Shown piece by piece: positions 501 through 34,224 of a stretch of DNA of 64,000 bases. Numbering within the stretch: position 1 is the first letter of the stretch; the number at the start of each line of letters is the position of its first letter. Source of the DNA: Tribonema minus (taxonomy: Eukaryota; Sar; Xanthophyceae; Tribonematales; Tribonemataceae). The notes under the pieces are model-generated. The model saw nothing but the letters and a program-made list of their open reading frames with translations, did no database searches and was not told where the DNA came from. A program made the translations under genes and the position numbers. Location of the stretch: the NCBI GenBank assembly GCA_017506865.1, contig JAFCMP010000514.1, positions 868,001-932,000 on the forward strand. Reading direction: 5' to 3'.

Positions 501-530
501 TGAAATGGTGTAAACGTTTACACCATTTCA
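501..530. repeat. Left terminal 30-bp perfect palindrome
   Basis: TGAAATGGTGTAAAC is followed immediately by its exact reverse complement, giving 30 of 30 palindromic bases at the very end of the element. An identical copy ends the element at 20646-20675. Two inverted half-sites of this kind resemble the target of a telomere resolvase or tyrosine recombinase, and could also fold into a hairpin end. What is seen is the palindrome; the role is inferred. Confidence 0.95.
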
Positions 531-847
531 CTCGGTCAAAGACTCGGTCAAAGACTCGCGTATAGTAGGGCGAGTACCGTCAAAGTCCCATTTGACGCCC
601 CCCACATGGACGCCGGTTACGATCAAACGCTCGGCCTGGGGGTCGAGCGCGGTGGTTACTGTAGGGGAAATGGAGTGAACTGCTCAAACCATGTGATCGT
701 GTGTTCCACTCCTTGACATGCAGGGTTTCATCAAGGTACTGTCGGACAGCTCAGCGTTTGCTGATCAAATGGTCAGATGTGTCAAATGGTCAAAGCTGTC
801 AAATGGTCAAAGCTGTCAAATGGTCAAAGTGCTCAGCAGCACCCGGA
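501..847. repeat. Left terminal inverted repeat
   Basis: Matches the reverse complement of 20329-20675. The outer 170 bp or so is nearly identical: the palindrome, two CTCGGTCAAAGA units, then the block with CGAGCGCGGTGGTTACTGTAG. It then carries an extra segment of about 80 bp (roughly 682-762) missing from the right copy. The shared blocks GTCAAATGGTCAAAGCT (tandem, about 20 bp) and CTCAGCAGCACCCGGA follow, where the similarity ends. Confidence 0.93.
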
Positions 848-949
848 GTTTGAAGTTGAAGTTTGTGTGGCGGAAACAACAGAAAATCTGCCACACACAG
901 TAGCTGAAACGCGACAAGCGCACACTGGGATATTTACAACATGTAGTAT

Positions 950-2272
950 TTACAGGTCGAGCATAGACCTCATCTTCTGCAGCCCTGCAACAGCCTCAGC
1001 CTTCAGCGCTACAGCCTCAGCCTCCAGCGCTACAGCCGCTGCAAGCATCTCATGCGCCCTCGTCATCTGCAGTTTGTAAGACGCCGCCCTCCCCCTCATC
1101 CAGTCCTCCCCATCCTCATCTCTGGATCGCTTCCTCGATGGCGAAGGAGCTGATGCCGAACCTGGCGCTGCCGGAGCTGCTGCCTGCGCTGGAGCTGCTG
1201 CTGCTGGAGCTGCTGCCTGCGCTGGAGCTGCTGATGGTGCTGATGGAGCTGCTGCTGCCGGCGCTGCTGTTGGAGCTACTGCCTGCGCTGGGGCTGCTGC
1301 TGCCGGCGCTGGAGCTGGAGCTGTCACTGGCGTTGCTGGCGTTGCTGGAGCTGGAGCTGCTGCTGCCGGATCTGTCGTTGGTGCATCGATGTGATGGATG
1401 TCAGCGTAATGGAAGGTGGTCTCGATGCTGGCATGACCAAATAGTTTCTTGCAGCAGTGGTGAAAGCTCTCTCCGTCGTAGTGGTAGCGGAAGTAGTACG
1501 CCGCTCCGAGGCCCCGCGAATGGTGAGGCGTGTACTCTTTGGCGAATCTCTTGCGGTATGCGACCCTCAAATCGTTGTAGACGTACAGGTTCTTCATCCG
1601 TGCTTCGATGCCGTTCCGAAGCGAGTCTTCTTCCTGATCGTATGCATCGTAGAGGTGATCATTCGCGGCACACCATTCCTCCGGTGTAATGTATATGATC
1701 GGGAAAGAGAACGGCTCGCCCTTCTTCTGATTCTTGCTCAACTTGTCGATCACGACGTGCCCGGGTTTCTCCGGGTCCACTTTGAAGCGCCCTTTCCATA
1801 TGCATGCGAACCTCCGCTGGCTCAACACCATGAGGGCCAGGAACAGCTCCCACCAGTCGCCGACAGTCGTGCCGGTGATGTCGCCGTGCGCGAGCGCGAC
1901 TGTCGCCGAGTATTGTATGATTGGCGTGGTGTGGAAATCGAGTATGCCTTTGTTCGCGTGCGCTTCGAGGATGGCATCACCTCTGGCTCTCACCCCGTTG
2001 CTGATGTCAGGACACGAACAGTGTTTTGCCATCTCCACTCTGTCGGGGTGTGTGGACTCCAGTATCAACTTCTTCACGTGACTGAAAAGATTCGGCATGT
2101 TTGCTATCAAGGTTGGCTTGAACGTGCACACTGCGCTCGACTGCTCGACTGCGATGGTGCGACAGTACTCGTTCAGCGCCGCCTGTGTACGCTCGTTGTC
2201 CTTGAGCGAGTCCCAGAACAGGATGTACTGGTTGGCGCACGCGCGCTCTCGCTTCGTCGGACCCTTCACCAT
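950..2272 (-). CDS. Tyrosine recombinase (integrase or possible telomere resolvase)
   Basis: A 440-residue protein with the tyrosine recombinase catalytic set. Arg153/154 lie in SQRRFACIW, candidate lysines are Lys177/180, the HxxR box is His250-Arg253 (HHSRG), His280 is in LFGHAS, and the nucleophile Tyr289 is in FHYAD nine residues later, the normal family spacing. Residues 300-400 are an Ala/Pro-rich low-complexity linker, and a short charged, then helical tail ends the protein. The family cuts and rejoins DNA through a 3'-phosphotyrosine at inverted half-sites. The element also encodes an rve integrase, so this enzyme may resolve or close the palindromic ends rather than integrate the genome. 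It lies just inside the left terminal repeat, and an AT-rich motif lies 42-51 nt upstream. The assignment to family is firm; the role is inferred. Confidence 0.88.
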   Translation of the reverse strand: MVKGPTKRERACANQYILFWDSLKDNERTQAALNEYCRTIAVEQSSAVCTFKPTLIANMPNLFSHVKKLILESTHPDRVEMAKHCSCPDISNGVRARGDAILEAHANKGILDFHTTPIIQYSATVALAHGDITGTTVGDWWELFLALMVLSQRRFACIWKGRFKVDPEKPGHVVIDKLSKNQKKGEPFSFPIIYITPEEWCAANDHLYDAYDQEEDSLRNGIEARMKNLYVYNDLRVAYRKRFAKEYTPHHSRGLGAAYYFRYHYDGESFHHCCKKLFGHASIETTFHYADIHHIDAPTTDPAAAAPAPATPATPVTAPAPAPAAAAPAQAVAPTAAPAAAAPSAPSAAPAQAAAPAAAAPAQAAAPAAPGSASAPSPSRKRSRDEDGEDWMRGRAASYKLQMTRAHEMLAAAVALEAEAVALKAEAVAGLQKMRSMLDL

Positions 2273-2313
2273 GGCTGCTGGTTGTGATGCTTCTCTTTGA
2301 CTGACAACTGTAA

Positions 2314-2323
2314 ATATAATTAT
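2314..2323 (-). promoter_or_regulatory. Putative early promoter motif of the tyrosine recombinase
   Basis: The minus strand reads ATAATTATAT, 42 nt upstream of the ATG at 2272. The identical decamer precedes the polymerase-helicase gene (9212-9221). Two exact copies upstream of two replication/recombination genes in GC-rich DNA suggest an early promoter element. Confidence 0.45.
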
Positions 2324-2364
2324 ACCAATTAATCAAACGCGGAAAGCTTGACACCACTGCGCTG

Positions 2365-2697
2365 TCAATCACCGAATAGCGGCGCGTACTTGTAACACAC
2401 GGTGCCGCCGCGGGTGAACCTCAGGCAGCAGTCCACTCCCGTGCGACTCTTGCAACTGTAGCTGCGCGCATGGTGACGGCCTTCACCCTGTAATCGAAAC
2501 CAGTTCACGCTGTACCATATGCAAACACTGTTGTCCGGAGGATATCGGAAGAACTCAGCCAGTTCAGATCCAGCCCCCCGTAGCTGCCGCACGTGCGGGG
2601 GCATGTCACGGTGTCGCGTGATCAAATAGTCCCATGCTGCTAATTGTACGCCCTCACTACGAATGCGCTTGATGAGGAACTCGTGTAGATCTGGCAT
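2365..2697 (-). CDS. Small Cys/Arg-rich viral protein of unknown function
   Basis: A 110-residue protein (start MPDLHEFLIKRIRSEG, end CYKYAPLFGD). The C-terminal half has four cysteines (SCKS, DCCL, VCYK) and many aromatics, which suggests a compact fold. The open frame extends a further 215 codons upstream, but that part is read entirely from the repeat array. The ATG at 2697, or an alternative at 2718, is therefore the likely start. A late-type motif (AAAAATGTT) lies 17-26 nt upstream. I do not recognise a family. Confidence 0.6.
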   Translation of the reverse strand: MPDLHEFLIKRIRSEGVQLAAWDYLITRHRDMPPHVRQLRGAGSELAEFFRYPPDNSVCIWYSVNWFRLQGEGRHHARSYSCKSRTGVDCCLRFTRGGTVCYKYAPLFGD

Positions 2698-2713
2698 GGT
2701 GTGACAACGCAAC

Positions 2714-2723
2714 AACATTTTTA
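2714..2723 (-). promoter_or_regulatory. Late-type promoter motif of the 2365-2697 gene
   Basis: The minus strand reads TAAAAATGTT, close to the TTTTAATGTT motif found before five structural or integration genes of the element. Confidence 0.4.
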
Positions 2724-2727
2724 CAGA

Positions 2728-3675
2728 ACAACGCCACTCTGTGGCCACGCGACGGCCGCCGCTGTGAATGACGCAGCAGCTGTATTTTGTATTTGTAATG
2801 TGTATTCTGTATTTTGAATTCGCACAGCAATTATTAATACAATCGTGACACACACGGCGAGCGTTCTCGGCGCTGCACGGCGGCGGCGCCCTCAGACATG
2901 ACGCTCGGCCTGTGGCCATGCGACGGCCGCCGCTGTGAATGACGCAGCAGCTGTATTTTGTATTTGTAATGTGTATTCTGTATTTTGAATTCGCACAGCA
3001 ATTATTAATACAATCGTGACACACACGGCGAGCGTTCTCGGCGCTGCACGGCGGCGGCGCCCTCAGACATGACGCTCGGCCTGTGGCCATGCGACGGCCG
3101 CCGCTGTGAATGACGCAGCAGCTGTATTTTGTATTTGTAATGTGTATTCTGTATTTTGAATTCGCACAGCAAGACAATCGTGACACACACGGCGAGCGTT
3201 CTCGGCGCTGCACGGCGGCGGCGCCATCAGACATGACGCTCTGCGACGGCCGCCGCAGTGCATGACGCAGCAGCTGTATTTTGTATTTGTATTGTGTATT
3301 CTGTATGTTGAATTCGCACAGCAAGACAATCGTGACACACACGGCGAGCGTTCTCGGCGCTGCACGGCGGCGGCGCCCTCAGACATGACGCTCTGCGACG
3401 GCCGCCGCAGTGCATGACGCAGCAGCTGTATTTTGTATTTGTAATGTGTATTCTGTATTTTGAATTCGAACAGCAAGACAATCGTGACACACACGGCGAG
3501 CGTTCTCGGCGCTGCACGGCGGCGGCGCCATCAGACATGACGCTCTGCGACGGCCGCCGCAGTGCATGACGCAGCAGCTGTATTTTGTATTTGTATTGTG
3601 TATTCTGTATGTTGAATTCGCACAGCAAGACAATCGTGAAACACATGGCAGTTCAACACCTGATCACTGGTACAT
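2728..3675. repeat. Tandem array A (about six units of 150-171 bp)
   Basis: Imperfect head-to-tail units each contain GACGGCCGCCGC, ATGACGCAGCAGCTGTATTT, a TGTATTCTGTATTTTGAATT segment, CAATCGTGACACACACGGCG and GCGTTCTCGGCGCTGCACGG. The first two units are 171 bp, and later ones shorten to 152 bp by losing CGGCCTGTGGCCA and TTATTAATA segments. Array B (9270-10062) is the same repeat in opposite orientation, and homology at the outer edge extends to the GTGATCAGG...TTGAACTGCC stretch. All reading frames through the units are open, so long ORFs here are artefacts. On the minus strand the array lies directly upstream of the 2365-2697 gene. Confidence 0.92.
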
Positions 3676-3702
3676 TCATGTGCAATTCAAGCGTCCTCGT
3701 CC

Positions 3703-5304
3703 TCACTGAAACTCATCGTTTGTGCCTGCCCGAATGTCCTCGAGTGTGTTCTCCATCGCGTCAACTATGTCATCGTCATCAGTGTCGCGTCCCGCCTCCG
3801 CCGCCGCCACCCTAGCGTCTGCCGCCGCCGCCCGAGCCTCCGCCGCCGTCGCCCGAGCATCCGCCGCCGCAGCGAGCGCTTCCGCTTCCAGCGCACGCCG
3901 GCGCCACGCCGCCGCCCCAGCGCCCTCTGCCTCTTCCAGCGCACGCCGGCGCCACGCCTCCGCTGCTCGTTTCTCCGCCTTAACGGACCACTCCGCAACC
4001 GACAACTGTTTTGTCCGCAAGCTGAGCATGGAGAAAAGCATCGCCGGGTCAGTGTCCTCCGCCGTGAGCGGGCTGCCCGGTCGCGCTGCCTCCGTGTTTG
4101 CGAGCCGCGCCTCGCTGATCGACAGTTGTTCCTCGAACACGTCGCGCTGCTCCTCAGCACTATCTGTCAACTGCTGCGCCGCTAGCAGTTCTGCTCGCAG
4201 CGGCCTCTCCGCTGCCATCCTGATCGCAGGGGAACTCTGCTGCTTGACGTCCACGTGCGCCCGCAGCTGTGCCACATCTCGCTGTAAGGCCGCGACGCGG
4301 TCGTCGTTGGCGAACTCGGCGAGCTTGCGCTGCGCGGACAGGGCGCGTTCGCATGTTGTCTGCATGGTCCTGCTGGCACGCTCCGAGACTGCGCTCTGGC
4401 TGGGCGACCGCTGCAGCATGCGCACGCAGTCATTGAGCATGTTGCGGATCGTGTCCAGTACGTTCAGGTGCCAGATGTCCGGCGTTGGGACAGTGCTCCA
4501 TCCGCTGGTCACGAGCAAGGTGCGGTCGACGCACTTCTGCACGTTGACGACGTCGAAGTCGCGCATGAAGTCCACCGCGTTATCCATCAGACGCATCACG
4601 TCGACGAGCTGCCAGAACGGTGTGGTGGCGGGGCCGGTGTGGCTGGGTACGGTAGAGTCGATCCACGCATCAAGACACGAGTCCTCGCCTTTTGCCCATC
4701 GGTAAGGCAACTCGGCCAAGTCGTAGATTTCGCGCATGTGCGACTCGACGGTGGCTGCGTCCAGCGCTGCGTGCCAAATGTCGCGGTGAGCCATGGCTAA
4801 CTGCCACAGAGCGCGCCTCTCGTCTGCTGCCGCTGCTGGTACTGCTGCCGCTGCCGCTGCCGGAGCTGCTGCCGCTGCCGCTGCCGGAGCTGCTGCCGCT
4901 GCCGGAGCTGCTGCCGCTGCTGGTACTGCTGCCGCTGCCGCTGCTGCGATCTGCTGCCTCTCAGGCGCGGATGTATGGTTCACGAACTCGAGGCGAATAA
5001 GGCACGGTACTCTCTTGAGCATTGTGGCAATGGCGGTAGGCTTGACGCCCGTGCCGTTGACGTGCACCCACACACAGCTGACGGGCACCGCGGGGTCCTC
5101 GCGCTCGCTGCAGAATTCTACCTCTACTGGTGTCAGTTCCGTACTGTAGATGTTGTGTTTGGGTTTATTTGTAGCTGCAGCTTCCCGTGCATCAGTGACG
5201 GCGCGCACCGCGGCCTCGTGATCATCATCGCCTTCGAAGAGGCAGCGGACGCCGTGTTTTCTGTTCTGTCTCTGATCCAGCCAGATCACCTCTGCCTCTG
5301 CCAT
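3703..5304 (-). CDS. Large coiled-coil viral protein, function unknown
   Basis: A 533-residue protein. Residues 1-115 look globular, with charged and hydrophobic blocks (MAEAEVIWLDQRQN at the start, VHVNGTGVKPTAIATMLKRV near 85-105). An Ala/Pro low-complexity hinge follows at about 120-160. The rest is strongly helical with heptad-like Ala/Leu/Glu/Arg and includes two WRRRALE repeats, ending in an acidic tail (DTDDDDIVDAMEN). This looks like an elongated scaffold, tail or tegument-like protein. It is the only large gene between array A and the inner repeat at 5939. I recognise no family; the open frame and absence of overlap support a real gene. Confidence 0.7.
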   Translation of the reverse strand: MAEAEVIWLDQRQNRKHGVRCLFEGDDDHEAAVRAVTDAREAAATNKPKHNIYSTELTPVEVEFCSEREDPAVPVSCVWVHVNGTGVKPTAIATMLKRVPCLIRLEFVNHTSAPERQQIAAAAAAAVPAAAAAPAAAAAPAAAAAAAPAAAAAAVPAAAADERRALWQLAMAHRDIWHAALDAATVESHMREIYDLAELPYRWAKGEDSCLDAWIDSTVPSHTGPATTPFWQLVDVMRLMDNAVDFMRDFDVVNVQKCVDRTLLVTSGWSTVPTPDIWHLNVLDTIRNMLNDCVRMLQRSPSQSAVSERASRTMQTTCERALSAQRKLAEFANDDRVAALQRDVAQLRAHVDVKQQSSPAIRMAAERPLRAELLAAQQLTDSAEEQRDVFEEQLSISEARLANTEAARPGSPLTAEDTDPAMLFSMLSLRTKQLSVAEWSVKAEKRAAEAWRRRALEEAEGAGAAAWRRRALEAEALAAAADARATAAEARAAAADARVAAAEAGRDTDDDDIVDAMENTLEDIRAGTNDEFQ

Positions 5305-5938
5305 GGCCTGCAGGGGGGGCGAAGGACAGACACGTCAGTATGATGTATGTTGTATTTGTAATGTTGTATCTGTATGTTTGCGAGTGTTCCGTCGATGGCA
5401 TTGCGCTTACAACTGCTAGCAGCCTACCTCGGCTGCGGCGCTGCTGCTGCAAATGACGCTACTGATGTGGCGAAGCAAACTGCATGGGTGAATGTCGTCG
5501 GACTAACATCTCACCTCCATAGAGAGGCTGGCGCGCTGCTTGCTGGTACTGGCTCACGCCACTGCCTTCGCCCCCCCACTGCTCTATGTTCTTGCCAGAA
5601 AACATTAATTGATCTAGTGGGTATGTATGCTTGGAAGATAATACAGAATACAGAACACAAATACAACATACATCAGACAGCAGACGGTAACTCTTTGTTC
5701 GTGTTCAAGATTCAGAAAATCAGAAGTTCAGAAACTCAGACGTACGAATCCACAAGTTTGTTTTGAGCGACAGATTGGAATGCAAACCGCCTTCCAATCA
5801 ACTGTAACACGCTGTTGAAGTTGTCAGTTCTGCGTCAGACCTACACACTTGGAAGGAGCGGGAGGGATGGACGGGCGCGATGGGGGCGCTGCGGTGCTGC
5901 TGGGAGCGCGCGGCGATCGGGAGCTCGCCACAGCACAG
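5305..5938. other. Viral intergenic region with a small inverted repeat
   Basis: No convincing gene. GTATGTTGTATTTGTA at 5345-5360 recurs inverted at 5641-5671 in a sequence related to the array units (ATACAGAATACAGAACACAA). The two copies flank about 265 bp. A 130-codon plus-strand frame at 5374-5766 begins within one arm and reads through the other; I do not support it as a gene. Bases 5850-5938 are GC-rich and lead into the inner inverted repeat. Confidence 0.5.
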
Positions 5939-6385
5939 GTCAGCCCCTACACCTACAGCGCCCCAAATGAAGTCGGCAGCGCGCTGCACGGAGATCTCGC
6001 CTACTCACTCTCTCTCTCTACTGAGACCACCAGCTTACCGCTCGCATACTCTCTCTAAGGTATGCATTTGCGTTTCACGTAACAACGCCTACTCTCTCTC
6101 TCTCTCAGGAATCCCATCCTGCATACTCTTCATACTCTTCATACTTATTTCTAATATTTGTGTGTGTGTGTGTGTGTGTAGAGAGTAGTATATGTGTGTG
6201 GCGGGGGAGTGGGGCATATAAGGTAAGCTAGCTGGCAGGTATGAGACGAAATAGTTGAACCATGAGAGAGAGAGAGGGGGAGTTTTTTACAGGGCGGGTG
6301 CTGTTTTTCACAGTTTTAATATTAGCTGATTTTCAGGTTTTGAGGAAATCATGGCATCCGCAGACCTCCGCTCACGAAGCTCACG
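5939..6385 (+). repeat. Inner inverted repeat copy IR-A
   Basis: 447 bp matching the reverse complement of 19872-20311, from GTCAGCCCCTACACCTACAG to CTCACGAAGCTCACGA. It contains CT-rich microsatellites, a TG microsatellite (about 6160-6178), GAGAGAGAGAGAG at 6265-6277 and a conserved CAGTTTTAATATTAGCTGAT block. It ends 57 nt before the ATG of the zinc-finger-like gene at 6443. Its partner ends 85 nt before the start at 19786, so both copies read into a gene start. Confidence 0.93.
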
Positions 6386-6412
6386 ATGCGCCTGACCACG
6401 CGTTCCATGTAC

Positions 6413-6442: not shown

Positions 6443-6733
6443 ATGGCTCAGACCACAGACGCGCAGTACATCGCCGATGGCCTGTGTCCCGTGTGCAAGG
6501 TCCCGCGCCGTTGCAAACACAGCAGTCCGCGCCGCGCGCTGATAGAGCACATGCGCACGCGTCGCGACGCCCCCCACGCGCTCTGGAGGGCCACGTGGTG
6601 GGATGAACACTTCACGCACGGCGGCAGCGCTCCCACCGGGCCGCGTGCGTTGAGCGACGATGACATACGCAGCGCCATATTCAGAGCTTTTGGCTACCTC
6701 CCTTCGGGCACACTCGGCACTTCAGCGTCGTGA
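6443..6733 (+). CDS. Small zinc-finger-like viral protein
   Basis: A 96-residue protein with one putative metal-binding cluster near the N terminus. CPVCKVPRRCKH gives two or three cysteines and a histidine, followed by a basic helix containing HMRTRRDAPH. The C-terminal third is Ala/Gly/Ser-rich. A role as a small DNA- or RNA-binding regulator is a reasonable guess, not shown. The 3' end overlaps the convergent polymerase-helicase gene by 53 nt. It is preceded by a late-type motif and the inner repeat IR-A. Confidence 0.6.
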   Translation: MAQTTDAQYIADGLCPVCKVPRRCKHSSPRRALIEHMRTRRDAPHALWRATWWDEHFTHGGSAPTGPRALSDDDIRSAIFRAFGYLPSGTLGTSAS

Positions 6734-9191
6734 CGTAGTGCTCTGGCTGGCCCGGAGCGGCCTCCACGAACCATTGAACCTTGTCGCGAGTCGCCCCGCA
6801 GGTGCACAGATATCGCTTGTACGTATCATACGTGCTGTACTTCTCGTAGAAGGCTGTGTCCTCGTGGCACTTGAGTAGCCACTTCATCAAATCAACGTCG
6901 TCTTTGGCTGCCATCCACCTGTCCGCGTTGCACGCGTTCACGAAGTGTGTCTGCGAGCACATCGTCAGATACTCGGCTTCATCAACGGAGTAGAGGTCGA
7001 TGCTGCGCATGTAGCTCAGGAACGCGGGCACTTCCACGGTGAACGCACTCAGGTTGCCCACTCGTTTCGCCTTCACGAACCCCTTGACCTTGGAAATGAA
7101 CATGCCGAACCCGATCGTCGTACTGCTGTACTCCGCGCACGACCCCATCGACGCCTTCTCCTTATTCCACGCCATGAAATCGCAGAACAGCGCATTAGTC
7201 TTCACGCTGTCGTAGAGGTCATCCGGGTACCTCAGGAACTTGTCTCGTAAGAACACCAGCTCGCGGCGCACCGAAAGCATCTGCGCGTCGACGTACTCCT
7301 GCAGCGGCACACGTTGCGTGGTGAAATTGAAATCTGAAATGTCCTGCTCCATCAAGTAATCATACAGCGCGCGGCGCACTCCGTCGCGCTTCAGTATCGC
7401 CCCCAGTGTGTTGAAGAAGTTGACATCGTTCATCCTAGCGTCCGAGAATGATATGAACTGGTACTTGCGGTCCGACGCACGGATGCGCTGGTGGCGCTCC
7501 CCGTGATTGCTAGTGAATATGTAGCGCGCGCAGCTCGTGTAGTTGAAGCGGCCCTGTATGTTTTTGATCTCGCCCTGACTCATCTCCGCGGTAATCAAGT
7601 CCATCAATTGATCGTAGTAGCGCGCCATCTCGGCGGGTCTGATCTCGTCGAGGCAGACCAGAAGATTGTTGCGGCCGGGACATGAGAACCTCCCGAAAAG
7701 ACTGTGCTCGAGGTCTGCGGCCTTTGAGCACATCGACTTGCCCATCAGCGGGACGTAAATGTGATTCACGACGAAGTTCTTGCCCACCCCTTCATCGCCC
7801 AGAAATGAAAGAGCAACGTTCGTCTTCTTGCCCGGCTGCTGCACTCTGTTTGCGAGATCTTTCTGTACGTACTGGTACACCGCGTCGTTGCCGTTACACA
7901 TGATGTCGCGCATGAATGGCAGCACGTGCCCGTGCAGGTCCTCGACGTCTGTCGGCGCCGCCGCCGGCAGCCGCGCGACCGCCAATCCGTAGTAGCAGTT
8001 GTACACGTTGCTCGGGCATTGGAGAGGGGGCGGCAGAAAATCTAGGCAGTCGTACGTTCGTACATCCTCGTCCATCATCCAGTCCTTGATGAACGGTTTC
8101 TTGGTCGCCGCGACAGACACCGTGTCCTTCACGCCGCTCTTGCGGCTCTTCGTCTTGGTCGCACGGACCTCCCAGTAGTACTTGTCGCAGTACATACTTT
8201 GAAAATCAGACATCCGCATTGTGTTCAGCGTTATGTCATCCGCGTGTGACGTCATCTCCTCGCAGAACATGAACGGGATTTTGCATTTGAACGCGGTCTT
8301 CTCGAATCCGGCCTTCACGCCCTCGTACCCCAGCGTGCACTTGTCGTATACCTCCTCATGCGTGCAATGCTCCCGGTCCATGTTTTTCCAGATGGGGTCT
8401 GGGTGGGACTTGGTGCGCCATTGAATGGAGATGCCGGAGGCGGCTTGGAAGGCGGACTCGGCGGCGCGGTGCAGCTCCGGCGGGACTCTCAAACAGGTGT
8501 GCAGTCCGTCGAATATAGAAGCGCACAGGTCTTGTTCCTGCCACAGCGGCATGGCGACGTCGACCGCCCACGACTCCAGACTGTTCAGAAGTAGACATAT
8601 GGCGCTGCCGTACGGGTTGTCAGAATCTTTCTTGATCGCCTTGAACTGCGGGTACAGATCGACGATGTCACGCGTGATGCGCTTCAATTCCAGCTTGAAC
8701 TCGCGCAGGAACTCAGACTTCGGTCTGAAGCCGCCGCCTATCATTTTGATCACGGAAAGCTTCAGGTCTGCAGCGGTCTCGCCTTCCAGGGGCGCGGCGT
8801 GCTCAAGCACCGCTTCGCGGTTTGTGTTGTAATACGTGAGCTTCTCGTGTTCCATGTCGTGTATCTGACAAAGCCCCTGTAAGATCGCGAAGTTCGCGTT
8901 GATTATATCGTTGTCGAACGTGCGGCGGCACACGGCGTGGCGCATAACGCGGTCGGTGTTCTGCAGCGACGGGTACGCGAACCTTCTGCCGTACCCGTGC
9001 GCGACGGGCTCGTACTTGACGGTCGCGCGCCCGTCCCCGTCGACCTTGCTCGCGTACGCCGCCAGTTTCACGTAGGACTCGTAGCTGGTCGCGTCCATCG
9101 TCGCGTCCGGCGTCGCCAGCAGGAACCGCAGCGCGTCGACGTCCACGCTCTCACGCAGCGTGAACGCACGCGACTTCGGCACGTGCAGCAT
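6681..9191 (-). CDS. TVpol-type DNA polymerase fused to superfamily 3 helicase
   Basis: Replication protein. The open frame starts at 9245 (854 residues; numbering below), but the early motif at 9212-9221 lies inside that extension, so I place the start at Met19 (9191, 836 residues). The N-terminal part has family-A-like polymerase motifs as in transposon-virus polymerases. Motif A is DNDIINANFAIL (Asp113, Asn117), the central helix contains IKMIGGGFRPKSEF (about 166-179), and motif C is FDGLHT (Asp246). The C-terminal part is a D5-like SF3 helicase with Walker A GDEGVGKN (483-490), Walker B LLVCLDEI (Asp533/Glu534) and sensor Asn580 in IFTSNHGE. This single enzyme would unwind and copy the viral genome. 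The tail ends in a Cys-rich CRVCPKGG segment. The helicase call is firm; the polymerase call is good but based on short motifs. Confidence 0.85.
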   Translation of the reverse strand: MLHVPKSRAFTLRESVDVDALRFLLATPDATMDATSYESYVKLAAYASKVDGDGRATVKYEPVAHGYGRRFAYPSLQNTDRVMRHAVCRRTFDNDIINANFAILQGLCQIHDMEHEKLTYYNTNREAVLEHAAPLEGETAADLKLSVIKMIGGGFRPKSEFLREFKLELKRITRDIVDLYPQFKAIKKDSDNPYGSAICLLLNSLESWAVDVAMPLWQEQDLCASIFDGLHTCLRVPPELHRAAESAFQAASGISIQWRTKSHPDPIWKNMDREHCTHEEVYDKCTLGYEGVKAGFEKTAFKCKIPFMFCEEMTSHADDITLNTMRMSDFQSMYCDKYYWEVRATKTKSRKSGVKDTVSVAATKKPFIKDWMMDEDVRTYDCLDFLPPPLQCPSNVYNCYYGLAVARLPAAAPTDVEDLHGHVLPFMRDIMCNGNDAVYQYVQKDLANRVQQPGKKTNVALSFLGDEGVGKNFVVNHIYVPLMGKSMCSKAADLEHSLFGRFSCPGRNNLLVCLDEIRPAEMARYYDQLMDLITAEMSQGEIKNIQGRFNYTSCARYIFTSNHGERHQRIRASDRKYQFISFSDARMNDVNFFNTLGAILKRDGVRRALYDYLMEQDISDFNFTTQRVPLQEYVDAQMLSVRRELVFLRDKFLRYPDDLYDSVKTNALFCDFMAWNKEKASMGSCAEYSSTTIGFGMFISKVKGFVKAKRVGNLSAFTVEVPAFLSYMRSIDLYSVDEAEYLTMCSQTHFVNACNADRWMAAKDDVDLMKWLLKCHEDTAFYEKYSTYDTYKRYLCTCGATRDKVQWFVEAAPGQPEHYVTTLKCRVCPKGGSQKL

Positions 9192-9211
9192 CGCGGCGGT
9201 GGCCAATCGTG

Positions 9212-9221
9212 ATATAATTAT
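9212..9221 (-). promoter_or_regulatory. Putative early promoter motif of the polymerase-helicase
   Basis: ATAATTATAT on the minus strand, identical to the motif before the tyrosine recombinase (2314-2323) and 21-30 nt upstream of the preferred start at 9191. Confidence 0.45.
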
Positions 9222-9269
9222 TCTGCAAACTGTCATGACGAACATGGCAGCGACGGTCCGTACTGCCGC

Positions 9270-10062
9270 ATGACATACTTGTGATCAGGTCTTGAACTGC
9301 CGTGTATTTCACGATTGTCTTGCTGTGCGAATTCAAAATACAGAATACACATTACAAATACAAAATACAGCTGCTGCGTCATTCACAGCGGCGGCCGTGG
9401 CATGGCCACAGGCCGAGCGTCATGTCTGAGGGCGCCGCCGCCGTGCAGCGCCGAGAACGCTCGCCGTGTGTGTCACGATTGTATTAATAATTGCTGTGCG
9501 AATTCAAAATACAGAATACACATTACAAATACAAAATACAGCTGCTGCGTCATTCACAGCGGCGGCCGTCGCATGGCCACAGGCCGAGCGTCATGTCTGA
9601 GGGCGCCGCCGCCGTGCAGCGCCGTGCAGCGCCGAGAACGCTCGCTGTGTGTGTCACGATTGTCTTGCTGTGCGAATTCAAAATACAGAATACACATTAC
9701 AAATACAAAATACAGCTGCTGCGTCATTCACAGCGGCGGCCGTCGCAGAGCGTCATGTCTGAGGGCGCCGCCCCCGTGCAGCGCCGTGCAGCGCCGAGAA
9801 CGCTCGCAGTGTGTGTCACGATTGTATTGATAATTGCTGTGCGAATTCAAAATACAGAATACACATTACAAATACAAAATACAGCTGCTGCGTCATTCAC
9901 AGCGGCGGCCGTCGCGTGGCCACAGGCCGAGCGTCATGTCTGAGGGCGCCGCCGCCGTGCAGCGCCGAGAACGCTCGCCGTGTGTGTCACGATTGTCTTG
10001 CTGTGTGAATTCAAAATACAGAATACACATTACAAATACAAAATACAGCTGCCGTGACATCT
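9270..10062. repeat. Tandem array B (about five units), inverted relative to array A
   Basis: Units of about 160-185 bp are the reverse complement of array A. Each contains GAATTCAAAATACAGAATAC, ACAAATACAAAATACAGCTG, CGTCATTCACAGCGGCGGCC and GTCATGTCTGAGGGCGCCGC. Some units have an internal duplication of GTGCAGCGCC, and some keep TTAATAATTGC or TTGATAATTGC. The array lies between two divergent genes, the polymerase-helicase to the left and the 10135 gene to the right. The sequences on each side resemble each other (GTCCGT...GCTGCCATG), suggesting a shared bidirectional control region. Confidence 0.92.
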
Positions 10063-10877: not shown

Positions 10878-12230
10878 TCAAGACGTCCCCTGTGGCGGCC
10901 TCTTGCGCTCTCTGAAGCCGAATGCGTCCTCCGGTCCCTGCGGTATGCCCGCGTCATCACGGCTTCCTTGCCACTCCGTGATGAAGCTGGCTCTGTCCTT
11001 GACCTGCGGCACAAATAGACATTGACCTCTCAAAAAGACTCTGTTAGGTATTTCTTCAACCGTGACTGTGTTGTCCTCGCGAGCCTGGGCCACCGTGTAC
11101 TCGTTTGGGCTGAAGCTGGCGTTATGACTACTTTTGTACTGGCCGATTTTGCGCGCCTGCCGCACGTTCGTGTGCAGTGCCGCGTGGTCGATCCTAACTT
11201 TATCGCCCTTCCGTAGAACATAATTGAAACGTTCATCCACCAGTTTGCCCTGGTACAAGTCGGCCATGCGCCTGCGCGCCGTGGCGATCACGGCCTTAGG
11301 GCACAGCGGGTCATCCAGGTCGTTCGGCCTGTAGCCCGTGACCGTGCTCTGGCTATTATTGAAAATGTTGAGCACGCGCACCAGGTTCTTGCGGAGGTCG
11401 CGGTGGATAGAATACTTGTCATTCTGCCAATAGCTGTGCAAAAGCGTTTTGATCGTTTTCACGGCCGTTTCAGCTCGAGCGTTCCCGGCGGGGTTCGCTG
11501 GGAGCGAGTACACCCCTTTGCACCCGTTCGCTTTAAGCAACGCAGAGTACGCGGCGCTGCGAAATTCGTTGTCACTGCGTATCAACTTTGGCTTCTGTGG
11601 CATGTCGTCGATCATGCTCTGCATCTCGGCGACGTGCGTGCCGCTCTCGCGCGTCGCCGTCAAACACGCTCGAATTTTTTTGGTGAAGTCGTCGACCAAC
11701 ACTAAGATGTATGGAAATTTTAGTTTTTTGTTCACTTTCTCCCCCTCTTGGTCAAATGTGCCACCTTCAATGAAGCCAAAGTCGATTGAAACCGTATGCC
11801 ACGGTCGTACGGGCAAAGTGGCTTGAGCCTTGGCTGTTTTCCTCCTACTGAACCACGTCTGGTGATCAGGATCCGTCCTCAAAAACTTCTGCACCTGGGA
11901 CATACTGATGCCTAGGTAGCGTCCCTTCAGATATGTGAAAAATCTATGCATTCCTGTAGAGCTGGGCATGTCGTTCCACTCTGATTCAAGCACCCCGAAT
12001 ACCTCGTCTTGGCTCAATACCACGCGCCCCTGAAAGGTGAATACGTCCTCCTTAGTGTGATATTCTAAAGGGAATGGCGCGCGTTTTTTGATGTCGGCGT
12101 TGTCTTGAAATTTGAATAATGAGAGGAGGTGTAGTTTTTTGAGGAGGTCGGGGTCCCCGACGTCGATCGCCTTGCCACCCCCCGCTTGATCAGCCGCTGC
12201 TGTAATCGTTTCAGAACGCTCCTCGCTCAT
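10878..12230 (-). CDS. rve-family (DDE) integrase
   Basis: A 450-residue retroviral/Polinton-type integrase that inserts linear viral DNA into the host genome. The catalytic triad is Asp150 (HTVSIDFGFIEGG), Asp220 (LIRSDNEFRSAAY) and Glu254 (NPAGNARAETAVKTIK), with 33 residues between the last two as in the D,D-35-E family. A long N-terminal region (1-140) probably holds the helical N-terminal domain, although I see no clear HHCC zinc site. The C-terminal part includes RKGDKVRI and NEYTVAQAREDNTVTVEE, an SH3-like DNA-binding fold. The GACAA target duplication is what such an enzyme would leave. All catalytic residues are intact. Confidence 0.92.
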   Translation of the reverse strand: MSEERSETITAAADQAGGGKAIDVGDPDLLKKLHLLSLFKFQDNADIKKRAPFPLEYHTKEDVFTFQGRVVLSQDEVFGVLESEWNDMPSSTGMHRFFTYLKGRYLGISMSQVQKFLRTDPDHQTWFSRRKTAKAQATLPVRPWHTVSIDFGFIEGGTFDQEGEKVNKKLKFPYILVLVDDFTKKIRACLTATRESGTHVAEMQSMIDDMPQKPKLIRSDNEFRSAAYSALLKANGCKGVYSLPANPAGNARAETAVKTIKTLLHSYWQNDKYSIHRDLRKNLVRVLNIFNNSQSTVTGYRPNDLDDPLCPKAVIATARRRMADLYQGKLVDERFNYVLRKGDKVRIDHAALHTNVRQARKIGQYKSSHNASFSPNEYTVAQAREDNTVTVEEIPNRVFLRGQCLFVPQVKDRASFITEWQGSRDDAGIPQGPEDAFGFRERKRPPQGTS

Positions 12231-15433: not shown

Positions 15434-15444
15434 AACATTTAAAA
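15434..15444 (-). promoter_or_regulatory. Late-type promoter motif of the core-like gene
   Basis: TTTTAAATGTT on the minus strand, 13 nt upstream of the ATG at 15421 and overlapping the 3' end of the ATPase gene. Confidence 0.5.
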
Positions 15445-16242
15445 GCTATTAGAGAGCCGTTGCCTTGGGATGTCGGCAAAAAGATAACCGAATTTTTGAA
15501 GAGTGTACAGCCGCAGCAAACGCTCGAATTCATGCTGCTCGCAGAAGCCGCTGACTTCATCATAGCACTCTTCGATCTCCTTCTTGTTGAGCGTTTTGAA
15601 AAACGCCCAATGAGTGGTGTTCGTGCGAATCGCTTTGGGGAGCCCCTTGACGGTTTGACTAACCAACACGAAGCTGACGCCGAACCGTGCCATATGCCTA
15701 TGACGCAGGCAAGCGTTCAACATCGGGTTCGCGGTGGCACGCGACAGCAGCGGACTTGCCTGTGCGTCATCCACGAGCACACAGTACGACGGCTGGCGCG
15801 GCGCGCACGGCATGTACCCGCGGCTGTCCAGAAGGTGCTCGTCCATTGCGTTCACAGCGGCGCCAGAGGTGTAGAGGTGGTGAACGATGGCATATTTCAA
15901 ATCGGCCTGATATTGTGCTGTGATCGCCTCCATCTCAACCTGTATGGCTTTAAGCGTGTTCCACACCGCCGGCGCTGAGAGGTCATCGTGTACTCTGTCC
16001 ATGTGCTCCTCACTAACGATGTTGCGGTATATACTGTTGGATGATGCCGTCGGTGATAAAATCCACGTGTGCGTGATGCTGCCCTCGCGCTGCATCAACG
16101 ATATGAGTGCGACGGCCAGGTAGCTCTTCCCCGCGTTACACTTGGCACTTAGGGTCAGAATAAACGGGAGCTGTGATATGTACTTTGACGTCACAGGTTG
16201 TACTTTTGGAAAGCGGCTCTCCAAGTCCGGGAGCTTGCGCAT
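15439..16242 (-). CDS. A32/FtsK-HerA-like genome-packaging ATPase
   Basis: 267 residues, the usual size for PLV and virophage packaging ATPases. Walker A is SAKCNAGKSYL (residues 32-42, Lys39). Walker B is SYCVLVDDAQ (Asp158/Asp159). A sensor-like SFVLVSQTVKGLPKAIR segment follows, resembling the VLxSQ motif of the family. It would pump the linear genome into the preformed capsid. It is the third core morphogenesis gene together with the two capsid proteins and lies in a minus-strand block with the core-like and fiber genes. All motifs are intact. Confidence 0.88.
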   Translation of the reverse strand: MRKLPDLESRFPKVQPVTSKYISQLPFILTLSAKCNAGKSYLAVALISLMQREGSITHTWILSPTASSNSIYRNIVSEEHMDRVHDDLSAPAVWNTLKAIQVEMEAITAQYQADLKYAIVHHLYTSGAAVNAMDEHLLDSRGYMPCAPRQPSYCVLVDDAQASPLLSRATANPMLNACLRHRHMARFGVSFVLVSQTVKGLPKAIRTNTTHWAFFKTLNKKEIEECYDEVSGFCEQHEFERLLRLYTLQKFGYLFADIPRQRLSNSF

Positions 16243-18062: not shown

Positions 18063-19346
18063 ATGTCGGTTCCGGCGTCTTTATCATACCCTCAGCTGCG
18101 GCCAGTCTCCGCATCTGCCGTGAGTAGCAGATTCAGCTCCCCTCCGGTGTCTGGAACCTCATTCGCCCCGGGGTCAATAATTAGCATCGACCTCGCCCAG
18201 TGTGGGGCAAGGAACTGTTGGTTGGACTGTGCCCAAACCATGATTTCATTTCAACTTAATGTAGGCTTAAACGGGGGCACGGCGCCTACATGGAGTTCAC
18301 ACGGTTATAACTGGTTGCAAACGGTAACTATGTGGGCGAGTGCTGGATCTTCGCAATTGGAGCAAATAACCAATTATAACGCCCTACATGCAGTATTACG
18401 CGACTTATGCAGCAGCCAGGACATGGTGAGAACGCGAGATAGCATTCTCCTAGGCAGTGACCCGACCAGACTGAGGTCCCCCGTGCAGAATGCCGCGGCC
18501 GTCACTAGCGTACAGTATAGCATTCCTTTGTTGTCCATCATAGGATTGCTTTCCAACACAGATAGAATGTTGCCTCTTCACGCGCTTGGGTCCGCTTTAA
18601 GGCTTGACGTCGAGGTCGCCAGTGCGGCAACTGCGATCGCCTCGGGGGGCACAGTTCCTGCAACTTCTGCGACGGTTACACTTAGTAACGTCACTCTCGA
18701 TTGCAGCTATATCACGTTGGTCGATTCAGCGGCTGACCAGATCCGGAGTATCACCGGCAATAAGTACGATTGGTCCTCGTCACAATGGAAGTGCTATAGG
18801 ACGATACATAGCGCCGGGGCTCTTTCAAACAGCGTCATGATCCCGAGTAGGGTGAGCAGTATGAAATCACTCATCATAATTCAGCGGGAGGCCGCTACGG
18901 AGTACAACATCGCAGCGAGTTCAGTAACCCAGAGAATTAGAAACCAGCTCAAACAATTCGCAGTTAGGGTTGGGGGTAGCTGGGTGACGACCGTCCCGAT
19001 CCAATGTGGCGCGCAGGCGATTCCGGCCTACCTCGAAGCGACGCGAGTTTTCTCAAATCCTGCATCAGAGTCTACATGTGGACTCCTCGCATCCGATTCG
19101 TGGACACTCGACACATCTGTGGCCCCGACGACGACGAGCGTTGAGGGATCGTTCATGATAGCCTCGGAGTTGGATGTGTTCAGCCAACAGCGCTTGGTCA
19201 GTGGTCACAGCACGAGCGCCAACGCCCTAGTGTGCGAGATCGTCTACTCTGCAGCTCCTCTTGGCGTTAATATCGATAGCTTCTGCGAGGCGGATGCCCA
19301 GTTCCACATCGATGGCGCAACGGGGTCGATCATGGTGGCAGTTTGA
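18063..19346 (+). CDS. MCP: Major capsid protein (double jelly-roll)
   Basis: 427 residues, PLV length. The protein is beta-rich throughout with the order expected of a double jelly-roll hexon. An N-terminal Ser/Pro arm is followed by strand-rich segments (DLAQCGARNCWLDCAQTMIS near 44-63). A helix-containing loop with LEQITNYNALHAVLRDLCSS (about 99-118) comes next; this kind of 'ITNYN..H..L' segment is typical of the alpha-helical loop in PLV and virophage capsid proteins. The second barrel carries the ITGNKYDWSSSQWKCYRTIH segment and ends with a short beta tail (FHIDGATGSIMVAV). Trimers would form the capsid facets. The frame is intact and a late motif lies upstream. Confidence 0.85.
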   Translation: MSVPASLSYPQLRPVSASAVSSRFSSPPVSGTSFAPGSIISIDLAQCGARNCWLDCAQTMISFQLNVGLNGGTAPTWSSHGYNWLQTVTMWASAGSSQLEQITNYNALHAVLRDLCSSQDMVRTRDSILLGSDPTRLRSPVQNAAAVTSVQYSIPLLSIIGLLSNTDRMLPLHALGSALRLDVEVASAATAIASGGTVPATSATVTLSNVTLDCSYITLVDSAADQIRSITGNKYDWSSSQWKCYRTIHSAGALSNSVMIPSRVSSMKSLIIIQREAATEYNIAASSVTQRIRNQLKQFAVRVGGSWVTTVPIQCGAQAIPAYLEATRVFSNPASESTCGLLASDSWTLDTSVAPTTTSVEGSFMIASELDVFSQQRLVSGHSTSANALVCEIVYSAAPLGVNIDSFCEADAQFHIDGATGSIMVAV

Positions 19347-19871: not shown

Positions 19872-20311
19872 TCGTGAGCTTCGTGAGCGGAGGTCTGCGG
19901 ATGCCATGAACTGTTGAAAATCTGAAAATCAGCTAATATTAAAACAGTGAAAAACAGCACCCGCCCTGTAAAAAACTTCCCCTCTCTCTCTCTCATGGTT
20001 CAACTATTTGGTCTCATACCTGCGAGCTAGCTCACCTTAAACCCCCACTCCCCCCGCCACACACATATACACATACACACACACACACACACAAATATTA
20101 AAAATAAGTATGAAGAGTATGAAGAGTATGCAGGATGGGATTCCGTGTGAGGGAGAGTGTAGGGTTGTTACGTGAAGCGCAAAAGCATACCTTAGAGAGA
20201 GTATGCGAGTGGTAAGCTGGTGGTCTCAGTAGAGAGAGAGTGTGTGTAGGCGAGATCTCCGTGGAGCGCGCTGCCGACTTCATTTGGGGCGCTGTAGGTG
20301 TAGGGGCTGAC
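19872..20311 (-). repeat. Inner inverted repeat copy IR-B
   Basis: 440 bp, inverted copy of 5939-6385, differing mainly by small indels in the TG and GAGA microsatellites and a few substitutions. Its outer edge is 17 bp from the right terminal repeat and abuts CATTCACAGCGGCGACC. That string matches the array-unit sequence CATTCACAGCGGCGGCC and may mark an old recombination junction. Confidence 0.93.
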
Positions 20312-20413
20312 ATTCACAGCGGCGACCATCCGGGTGCTGCTGAGCACTTTGACCATTTGACAGCTTTGACCGTTTGACACATCTGAGAATTTGATCAGTT
20401 CACTTCATTTCCC

Positions 20414-20607
20414 CTACAGTAACCACCGCGCTCGACCCACATGCCGAGAGTTTGATCGAAACCGGCATCCATGTAGGGGGGCGTCAAATGGGACTTTGAC
20501 TGTACTCGCCCTACAGCAACCACCGCGCTCGACCCCCAGGCCGAGCGTTTGATCGTAACCGGCGTCCATGTGGGGGGGCGTCAAATGGGACTTTGACGGT
20601 ACTCGCC
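20414..20607. repeat. 97-bp tandem duplication inside the right terminal repeat
   Basis: Units 20414-20510 and 20511-20607 both run from CTACAG(T/C)AACCACCGCG to (T/G)GTACTCGCC, with about eight mismatches. The left repeat has a single unit. Confidence 0.92.
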
Positions 20608-20645
20608 CTACTATACGCGAGTCTTTGACCGAGTCTTTGACCGAG

Positions 20646-20675
20646 TGAAATGGTGTAAACGTTTACACCATTTCA
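20646..20675. repeat. Right terminal 30-bp perfect palindrome
   Basis: Same 30 bases as 501-530. The first 15 (TGAAATGGTGTAAAC) are followed by their exact reverse complement, ending at the last base of the element. Confidence 0.95.
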
Positions 20676-20680
20676 GACAA
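20676..20680. repeat. Right target-site duplication, GACAA
   Basis: Repeats the GACAA at 496-500. Removing the element and one copy gives GTCACGACAAAAGCACGCCA, which aligns with the sister intron GTCACAACACGGGCACGCCG (from about base 221). Confidence 0.75.
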
Positions 20681-20743: not shown

Positions 20744-21896
20744 TTGTTGCTCTGTTGGTGGCGAATGTCGAGTTGGTGGAGGTGAAATCGCCAGAGTTGT
20801 AGATGGCTCCACCAGAATCTGCAACGCAACCGAAGCGAGCAGTCAGAACGCTGGTTCATCGATCAATGCCAAGATGGATCCCAAATGCACAGACGTCGCC
20901 ACGAATTTCAAAGGACTCAGGCGCGCCACGCTGATCACAGCATGCGTGCGCCATCTGCCACATATGGCGTCACATCACATACAGCAAGGACATGACGACA
21001 CCACAGCTCCACAGAATTGCCGGTGACTCATTGCGCTCCACGCAACTGGCAGGACGTGAATGAAACTGTCCGATTGTGAACATCCAAAACAGTACTCACT
21101 TGCAAGGTTTTGGTCGAAAGCGGTAGAGTGGCTGGTGACATGGCCACTGTTGTAGATAGCTCCACCTTCTGCACCGCCAACAGCTGCGACAGTTGCGGTG
21201 AACATGACAGAGAAAAAGGGACATGTTGCAAATGAGAGCTTGCCCGAACATCCTCTGTTGTCTAAAGCCCACTGTAACAAAAAAAATGTTTTACCAGTGT
21301 GTACACACTGCCAATCAACAGGCGGCGACATCAACAGAATGAAAAATGCAGAGAAGGCGTGCCTCTTCAGTTGCCGCCCGAAAAGGCATTATTCCGGTTT
21401 TTCTGATGAGTATGCGAGGTCGCTGTAACAATCGCTCACCTCGGTTAAACCAGAATTGGCAAGCCTCCAGTGAAAGTTCCCCACCTTCGAACACGCTTAC
21501 AGCTCCGCCACCGTGATACCCCTCGTCAACGCTCACCCGTCCGTCCCTGAGCCTGAGGTGTCGCAACGTCACGGAAGCACCAGTCCGCACACGAAGGAGC
21601 TGCGTCTCGTTCTGCCCCGAAATTGCAGCGGGCTCCGAGTCCGTGCCCCGACCGTTGATCACAAGGGTCGTCCCGGCGCCGAGGATTATCGGTTCGGTAA
21701 GTTTTACGAACCCTCGCCATTCCACCTCAATGTTCTGACCACGGCACACCGCTGCCTCTGTAAGCTTCATCGCAGACGCATGGTCATCAACGATGTCAGG
21801 GGGTGCCTTGCACACCGCGGCATCAAGGGCCCCGGCGACTTTCATGAGCTGCGCAGAAGCAAAAAAGAGCAAGAACATGATCACCGTCCGACTCAT
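20744..21896 (-). CDS. Host secreted beta-helix repeat protein, 5' exons
   Basis: Minus-strand exons 21896-21440, 21183-21100 and 20818-20744; the gene continues at 360 on the far side of the provirus. Exon 1 starts MSRTVIMFLLFFASAQLMKV, a clear signal peptide. It then has beta-helix-like rungs (VEWRGFVKLTEPIILGAGTT, VTLRHLRLRDGRV, GGGAVSVFEGGELSLEACQF). Exons 2 and 3 encode VGGAEGGAIYNSGHVTSHST and SGGAIYNSGDFTSTNSTFAT. All junctions are phase 1 and introns begin GTGAG. The product is probably a secreted or surface parallel beta-helix protein related to the chlamydial Pmp/algal GGAIxN family. The 20-kb insertion in its third intron may reduce expression. A longer start at 21986 is open but would place the signal peptide internally. 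Confidence 0.7.
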
Positions 21897-24569: not shown

Positions 24570-25639
24570 CATTGATTTGAAAGAGGGGATGATCAAGGGG
24601 ATGCATGTGTGCCAAATGTAATTTCGTGGAGCGCGATTCAGTCGTCGGACTGACACAGTCTCAGTCAACACGCCAATCATGGCGTTTGACCAGAAGGATA
24701 GAGATGGTGCCATCCAGCTCCTGAAAACGATGGCTGATATAAGTGTCGATGATGAGTAGAGAGTGGGGTATGCGCTGGCAATGGCAATCTGCAAATGCTG
24801 CAACACTGCTGCCTCATCTGGTTGCTGTTGCCTCATTAGCATGCCGATTCCTGCGGCGTGCTCATGACTTTGATGCTGCAGCAATGACATGTGGCGACTG
24901 TGACGTTTGCGTGTTGCAGTCAATGCTAGTACTGCACACAAGGTGTACTATGGTGCTCTGTGTTCATTGCTTCAAATTATGCCTGCACTGGTGTCACATG
25001 CAAATTGCTCACCTGCAGCTTTCTGCACTGCTTGCTGCTGCCATCAGCTGCACCGATGCGCCTGAACACCGCTCCCGCCTGCTGCTCTCTGCACTGCTTG
25101 CTGCTGCCATCAGCTGCACCGATATGCTTGAGTACAGCTCCTGCCTGCTGCTGCAATCAGCTCCACACTTGTGCCTCCATCAGCTTTTTGCAGAAGTGTT
25201 GCTGATACCAGCGCTGCTGTTGTTGCTGATGCAAGCGCTGCTGCTGCTGCTTATGCAAGCGCTGCTATTGTTGCTGATGCAAGCGCTGCTGTTGCTGATG
25301 CAGAGCTCTTCTGCTTCCGTTACTCTGCGCAGTTGAAGATGTTGTCTGCTGCTGCCGCTGCGTTGCTGCTGCTGCTGCTTGCTGCTTACTGCGTTGCTGC
25401 TTCTGCTGCGTTGCTGTTTCTGCTTGCTGGCTGCTGCTTGCTGCGTTGCTGCTGCGTTGCTGCTGCGTCGCTGCTGCCGTTACTGTTGCTACTGCGTTGT
25501 CTGCTGCATTGCTGACTGCGTTGTTGCTGGGTTGCTGCTTCAAGTGCGCTACTGGTATCGGCGCTGCGCTACTCTTGCTGCGCCACCATAGCCATCAGCA
25601 GCTGCCTGCGTGCACCCCTCAGTTGACCACGGGATGCGC
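24570..25639. other. Leu/Ala-coding low-complexity DNA, no gene supported
   Basis: From about 25010 to 25550 the sequence is dominated by CTG/TTG/GCT repeats (for example GCTGCTGTTGTTGCTGATGC units with CAAGCG) that keep several frames open on both strands. Two copies of TCTGCACTGCTTGCTGCTGC lie about 70 bp apart (from 25021 and 25088). No credible protein seen. Confidence 0.5.

Positions 25640-30314: not shown

Positions 30315-34224
<3,910 letters not shown>

Follow-up and report, generated by a model that had tools for sequence, protein, structure and literature searches.

Palindromic ends beside tyrosine recombinase genes in polinton-like proviruses of Tribonema minus: possible exchangeable end modules of telomere-resolvase type

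The stretch of DNA analyzed here (the window) comprises 64 kb of the Tribonema minus genome and contains a polinton-like virus (PLV) provirus that spans positions 501-20675 (20,175 bp, 20.2 kb). An earlier note on this DNA had claimed that both ends of the provirus are the same perfect palindrome and that a tyrosine recombinase (YR) gene sits beside the left end, and both observations were confirmed. The palindrome, TGAAATGGTGTAAACGTTTACACCATTTCA, is 30 bp long, exactly self-complementary, of the form TG...CA, and occurs identically at 501-530 and 20646-20675. No other even-length perfect palindrome of at least 18 bp occurs in the 64 kb, and a search of the 158-Mb assembly gave no further exact copy; in ten Markov randomisations of the window the longest palindrome arm was 11 and none reached 13. 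The two palindromes stand at the outer extremes of a terminal inverted repeat that is identical over 103 bp, so they represent one site present twice rather than two independent coincidences. Direct sequence comparison identified a 5-bp direct duplication, GACAA, that abuts both palindromes exactly (496-500 and 20676-20680, + strand).

The YR gene (950-2272, - strand, 440 amino acids) lies 419 bp from the left palindrome and encodes the catalytic residues of its superfamily, namely R154, K180, H250xxR253, H280 and Y289. Residues 1-295 are followed by a Pro/Ala-rich tail. In the C-terminal third of the protein (950-1387, - strand) a Pro/Ala repeat gives way to a different end, and low-complexity tails were also observed in several other YRs of this genome. 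The provirus in addition encodes a retroviral-type (rve) integrase of 450 amino acids (10878-12230, - strand; PF00665, E 6e-8) for which the genome yields 75 matches, a part of them fragments of one gene.

The right terminal inverted repeat is uninterrupted in self-comparison and about 800 bp long (19872-20675, - strand), whereas a 5-kb break from 847 to 5939 splits the left one into an outer part (501-847, + strand; 501-603 identical to 20573-20675, with gapped matches on to 20329) and an inner part (5939-6386, + strand; 92% to 19872-20311). The recombinase gene sits inside this break, which suggests that the recombinase region was inserted into one of the ends. The remaining annotated genes are a primase-helicase of 854 amino acids (6681-9245, - strand; DUF5906 and primase PHROGs), a probable but weakly matched packaging ATPase of 267 amino acids (15439-16242, - strand; Pox_A32 E 0.009, terminase PHROG E 0.007) and a candidate for the double jelly-roll capsid protein (18063-19346) whose sole Pfam or PHROG match is a weak one to GAS2 and for which no relative was found in viral_contigs. 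No DNA polymerase B was found among the fourteen provirus proteins scanned against Pfam, a scan that covered the small frames in part. The rve integrase, primase-helicase, inverted repeats and 5-bp duplications, together with the weaker ATPase match, identify the element as a polinton-like virus. Two tandem arrays lie inside the provirus (2739-3672 and 9268-10060), with units of about 150-175 bp that are mutually inverted and 92-100% alike. A 67-bp stretch recurs on both flanks (5-71, 287-353, 20748-20814 and 21101-21167) in copies that are 69-87% alike, so the provirus probably lies within a host repeat array.

Terminal palindromes were found to be a recurrent feature of these elements. Stretches around the ends of some of the integrase-bearing elements, rather than all 75 matches, were sampled, and nine insertions, counting the window element, end in palindromes that are 29-30 bp long and in every case of the form TG...CA. 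In what follows, C numbers denote contigs of the T. minus assembly, C511 being the window contig. Besides C511, both ends are palindromic in C2 (29 bp, perfect duplication CAGTC), C157 (perfect duplication TGTTT), C57 (duplication matching at four of five letters) and C212, where one palindrome has a single central mismatch and the duplication, at three of five letters, is unconvincing. C348 and C133 have one palindromic end each and, as they share a perfect GAGCT, are treated as opposite ends of a single insertion. Contigs C92 and C110, with one 29-bp palindromic end each, are likewise joined because of a perfect GTGGC on both; we infer this joining, and an rve match is present on each contig. 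One palindromic end each was found in C531 and in C490 (29 bp). The C348 end is repeated in C123 with an identical flank. In the 37.6-kb insertion at C157:1058050-1095687, the two end palindromes differ at the central dinucleotide (CG and TA) and each is perfect.

A palindrome scan covered 255,668 bases of fetched loci, mostly near element ends and partly overlapping. It returned twelve strings with arms of at least 13, all of them 29-30 bp and TG...CA, two after trimming one matched flanking base on each side. One of these (L050:1557) does not lie at an element end, and two represent one site read on both strands. In C201 and C554, which belong to an integrase group about 40% identical, no palindrome with arms of at least 10 was found in the 3.4-3.5 kb beside the recombinase gene; the two are alike over about 1.4 kb of that stretch.

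The symmetry of the palindromes is conserved while their letters change. In the nine distinct 30-mers, 134 of the 135 pair cells are complementary and 13 of the 15 pairs have changed on both sides; the only invariant pairs are T1-A30 and G2-C29. None of 500 shuffles reached the observed score, number of paired cells or both-side counts, and nine reached the observed pair types, in a control that leaves the relatedness among the 30-mers in place. None of six slid versions of the alignment came near the observed covariation. Most of the palindromes were found through being palindromes, so the percentage of paired cells is partly given by construction, and searches that do not ask for symmetry provide the cleaner evidence of covariation. 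A search with one palindrome allowing up to three mismatches found six sites (C123 and C348 sharing a flank), all of them perfect: four are identical and two each differ by one compensated pair, with no site showing an odd number of changes. A search with the C531 palindrome found one variant (C534), again one compensated pair apart. When C110 and C490 are compared by position, two compensated pairs and the loop differ. The central 6 bp are self-complementary in 12 of the 13 thirty-bp sites, whereas in each of the five 29-bp sites the centre is odd or unpaired. Read inward, the centres of C92 and C110 are CCA and TGG respectively, a flip.

In eight of the nine elements, the distance between a YR frame and the palindrome is 0.2-1.5 kb. 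Across nine YR sequences R154, K180, R253, F270 and H280 are invariant, and H250 is present in six of six sequences of another alignment, giving the superfamily order R, K, HxxR, H, Y. Y289 of the window protein stands at the expected position of the nucleophile; among the proteins the catalytic tyrosine falls in a C-terminal stretch rather than in one aligned column. The C212 gene is split over two frames and its product does not have the histidine of HxxR. The YRs form three groups. Group I consists of C511, C57, and C157 with C123 (mutually 90% alike, otherwise 36-40%), group II of C92 and C2 (29% alike), both of which stand beside 29-bp palindromes, and group III of C531 and C212 (32%), with P0005 74% alike to C531.

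The similarity of the YRs was found to be independent of that of the integrases (Mantel r -0.04). The C92 element has an rve integrase 90% identical to that of the window, yet it carries a group-II YR and a different palindrome at its end. Beside its group-II gene lies a remnant of 124-128 amino acids (128 codons) that corresponds to the first part of a window-type YR at about 90% identity. It is likely from these sequences that a module of recombinase plus terminus was replaced in C92, and the best reading of the set as a whole is that enzyme gene and palindrome form an exchangeable module at the element end. The earlier note had proposed to compare the end palindromes of relatives, where covariation with the recombinase would speak for its model. 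Palindromes do persist in relatives with different letters, and in C92 both partners differ jointly, but the formal correlation between half-site letters and YR similarity (n=7; 409 of 5040 permutations) is suggestive without being significant.

The same note had asked whether the window enzyme groups with the telomere resolvases or with ordinary integrases. This check and the comparison of relatives turned out mostly in favor of its model, which is supported in part overall. A pooled profile of the palindrome-associated YRs, searched against the PDB, gave the protelomerase TelK (2v6e) as the top match (E 0.003); up to E 10 no other recombinase was found, the other three matches being unrelated with E >1. 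In hhalign, the pooled profile reached 95% against TelN, TelK and the PY54 protelomerase together with two giant-virus-type proteins of Tribonema, 87% against the phage protelomerases alone and 12% against lambda, P2, HP1, P4 and Cre. By group, resolvases were preferred over integrases in group I (76 versus 0.5%) and group II (63 versus 7%). The pooled hidden Markov model scored TelN, TelK and PY54 at 10.7-13.9 bits, compared with 3.7 for lambda, 2.7 for the P2 integrase and 6.7 for the best shuffled sequence. The Pfam model ResT-TelK_cat (PF16684) matches three group-III proteins (E 4e-4, 0.011 and 0.14). These three match no other recombinase model of Pfam, and PF00589 gave no listed match for the palindrome-associated YRs scanned at E 1 (E 0.01 for the window protein). 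Small resolvase and integrase profiles scored on nine single YRs gave noise for both, and tests on one protein at a time carried no information. Since Pfam backs group III, the profile comparison backs groups I and II and no test backs all three, the enzymes are assigned to the telomere-resolvase branch as likely: the relationship is supported, membership in the family is not.

A wider search with ResT-TelK_cat found 52 matches in the T. minus genome, including C179:526663 (L064) and C90:1151923 (L065), and among 14 control genomes a match in Synechococcus elongatus only. Twelve of the 52 are strong (E <=1.3e-17); one of these was compared with solved structures and matches TelK, ResT and TelA. 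No rve match is found within 12 kb of any of the twelve, and they are perhaps derived from endogenous giant viruses. Among the 40 weaker matches, 27 lie 0.3-10 kb from an rve match and 13 do not, so other PLVs in this genome seem to carry members with a resolvase domain; twelve of the 27 score above the curated cut-off and four are fragments of about 24 positions. Two copies of such rve-near elements were inspected and have no terminal palindromes.

Taken together, the palindrome is probably the target site of the neighboring recombinase, a conclusion that holds whether the enzyme forms hairpins or acts in the manner of Cre. Our best explanation, which we rate at slightly under an even chance, goes further: the palindrome would be the target of an adjacent YR of the telomere-resolvase branch, and enzyme and site would constitute an exchangeable end module, probably acting through hairpins. 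After replication, the genome ends would be joined or folded back through the palindrome, and the recombinase would cut near its center and either rejoin the strands as hairpins or resolve the junction. Copying through a hairpin would keep each palindrome perfect while its letters drift, and could flip the center. Before insertion, the hairpin would be nicked at its base and copied out, which would restore a full TG...CA palindrome at each end, and the rve integrase would then insert the restored ends and generate the 5-bp duplication. The formation of a hairpin requires symmetry through the center of the site, which ordinary recombination sites do not need. Central symmetry, constant length, changing letters and the flip between C92 and C110 are what hairpin copying would give, and a role of rve as the inserting enzyme fits the TG...CA ends and the 5-bp duplications.

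Several results weigh against this explanation. Group III shows no preference in hhalign (10% for resolvases, 11% for integrases). The window YR alone has no Pfam match at E 0.01 and no telomere-resolvase match in single-protein searches, and the best palindrome-associated proteins score 20.3, 15.8 and 12.2 bits with PF16684, where the cut-off is 27 bits. The tyrosine that replaces histidine three residues before the second catalytic arginine in TelA (Y363) and ResT is absent, with histidine in six of six proteins; one strong PF16684 protein of T. minus also has histidine, so this tyrosine is not universal. One C212 palindrome carries a single uncompensated change, and no YR frame was recognized within 3.1 kb of the C490 palindrome. 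A palindrome kept without a recombinase was named in the earlier note as evidence that would speak against its model; at most the C490 end and two solo palindromes are of this kind.

The solo palindromes bear most directly on the main rival, in which the palindrome is a symmetric site of the Cre/lox type: the YR would recombine the two terminal palindromes, excise a circle with one palindrome and leave another between the duplications, with rve again responsible for insertion. A single palindrome at C534:494580-494609 (L054:1581), without an inverted repeat on either side, lies between two copies of AAAGC. This is exactly the scar predicted and is what would be left by recombination between two provirus ends, and Cre-like excision explains it more simply and in fewer steps than the hairpin scheme does. 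It is the one clear case known, and deletion between short repeats could also produce it; the other solo palindrome (C126:31010-31039, L069) has neither a duplication nor an inverted repeat. The catalytic R-K-HxxR-H-Y set is the same as in ordinary recombinases, and Cre/lox-like systems are usually built from an enzyme and a two-fold site some 30 bp long; Cre/loxP and the engineered symmetric lox sites share this site size, the YR chemistry and the single site that remains after deletion. On the other hand, the central 6-8 bp of Cre-like sites need no symmetry, and symmetry there makes excision and inversion equally likely. The spacer of natural lox is asymmetric, whereas most of the Tribonema centers are symmetric, being perfect in 12 of 13 thirty-bp sites with one center changed as a compensated pair. 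The pooled profile, moreover, leans to protelomerases rather than integrases and finds no solved recombinase besides TelK. We regard Cre-like excision as rather unlikely. TelA has been converted into a Cre-like enzyme, as described in part of PMC12270096.

A second alternative is that the ends are self-priming, as in parvoviruses: the 3' end would fold into a hairpin and prime the other strand, selection would keep the fold, and the YR would have another job. Folded alone, the window 30-mer forms a hairpin of -11.5 kcal/mol against a mean of -2.3 for shuffled sequences, and it is symmetry rather than letters that is conserved. The flipped center in C92/C110 also agrees with this proposal, as such a flip is a known mark of hairpin transfer, and the same applies to the presence of a primase-helicase without a polymerase B among the proteins scanned. 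Self-priming nevertheless leaves unexplained the YR gene at the palindrome in most elements, the joint difference of YR and palindrome in C92 and the narrow length of 29-30 bp, and no nicking endonuclease was identified; we consider it improbable. The weakest alternative, in which the rve integrase (or a dimer of it) depends on a symmetric end and the YR is a passenger, is very doubtful: TG/CA are indeed the sole invariant letters and the 5-bp duplications lie directly outside the palindromes, but integrases 83-90% identical occur with very different palindromes (of 12 half-site letters, C511, C92 and C212 have 3-6 in common), a divergence beyond TG/CA that an integrase reading the sequence would not tolerate, and a perfect inner half would have no reason.

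Among the known systems closest to the explanation that we prefer, a resolvase-like enzyme with its palindrome, are the phages N15 and phiKO2, in which the palindromic site likewise adjoins the gene of an enzyme with a tyrosine nucleophile (TelN and TelK respectively). In N15 the inverted repeat with the cut site occupies 24775-24830 and the protelomerase gene 24995-26890; in phiKO2 telRL lies at 29121-29170 and the protelomerase at 29336-31258. The Tribonema site is shorter (29-30 bp versus 50-56 bp) and is carried in full by either end of an integrated element that target duplications flank. TelN and TelK have 631 and 640 amino acids, whereas the window YR has 440 including its tail, and the kinship is at profile level only. 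According to parts of PMC3558466, different telomere-resolvase systems have unrelated site sequences, a likeness to the variable palindromes found here.

Another such system is an endogenous phaeovirus element of Ectocarpus, for which passages of PMC13236599 describe a telomere resolvase and a telRL-like inverted-repeat site where reads turn back. The virus infects a related algal group and integrates by a separate enzyme, as in Tribonema; from the same passages, the resolvase site lies within a circular giant-virus genome that is integrated by a YR, whereas in the 20-kb Tribonema PLV both termini are sites and integration is by rve. Between the pooled profile of the PLV YRs and the giant-virus-type enzyme, identity is 16% over 228 columns (96% probability), which makes them remote relatives. 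A telomere resolvase is also predicted in coccolithoviruses in a section of PMC10222054. Known PLVs with rve or YREC, as far as covered in portions of PMC12220804, PMC4642659 and PMC10120064, resemble the window element in size, inverted repeats, 5-6-bp duplications with rve and a primase-helicase, and in some of them a YR lies near an end. In those portions the YR is treated as an alternative integrase, whereas the Tribonema elements combine rve with a YR that is accompanied by a terminal palindrome. The term 'palindrom-' does not occur in the main texts of these three papers.

Among the papers listed in searches of the open-licence literature, judged partly from titles and the opening lines of abstracts, none was found to describe PLV ends as palindromic or as hairpins. 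More broadly, and with still less confidence, PLVs of yellow-green algae may keep hairpin telomeres by means of swappable cassettes of resolvase-like enzyme and palindrome, with hairpin copying maintaining the ends and rve inserting them once opened. In that case telRL-type sites would themselves serve as transposition ends, to our knowledge for the first time in viruses of eukaryotes. A palindrome that is symmetric but variable, together with a YR near the resolvases, gives a concrete substrate and a concrete enzyme to the question of how linear PLV genomes replicate their ends without a protein-primed polymerase. If true, this would be an answer to how ends are maintained in PLVs without such a polymerase. 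It would also supply natural pairs of enzyme and site with different specificities, and would connect PLVs with the telomere resolvases that algal giant viruses carry in those hosts.
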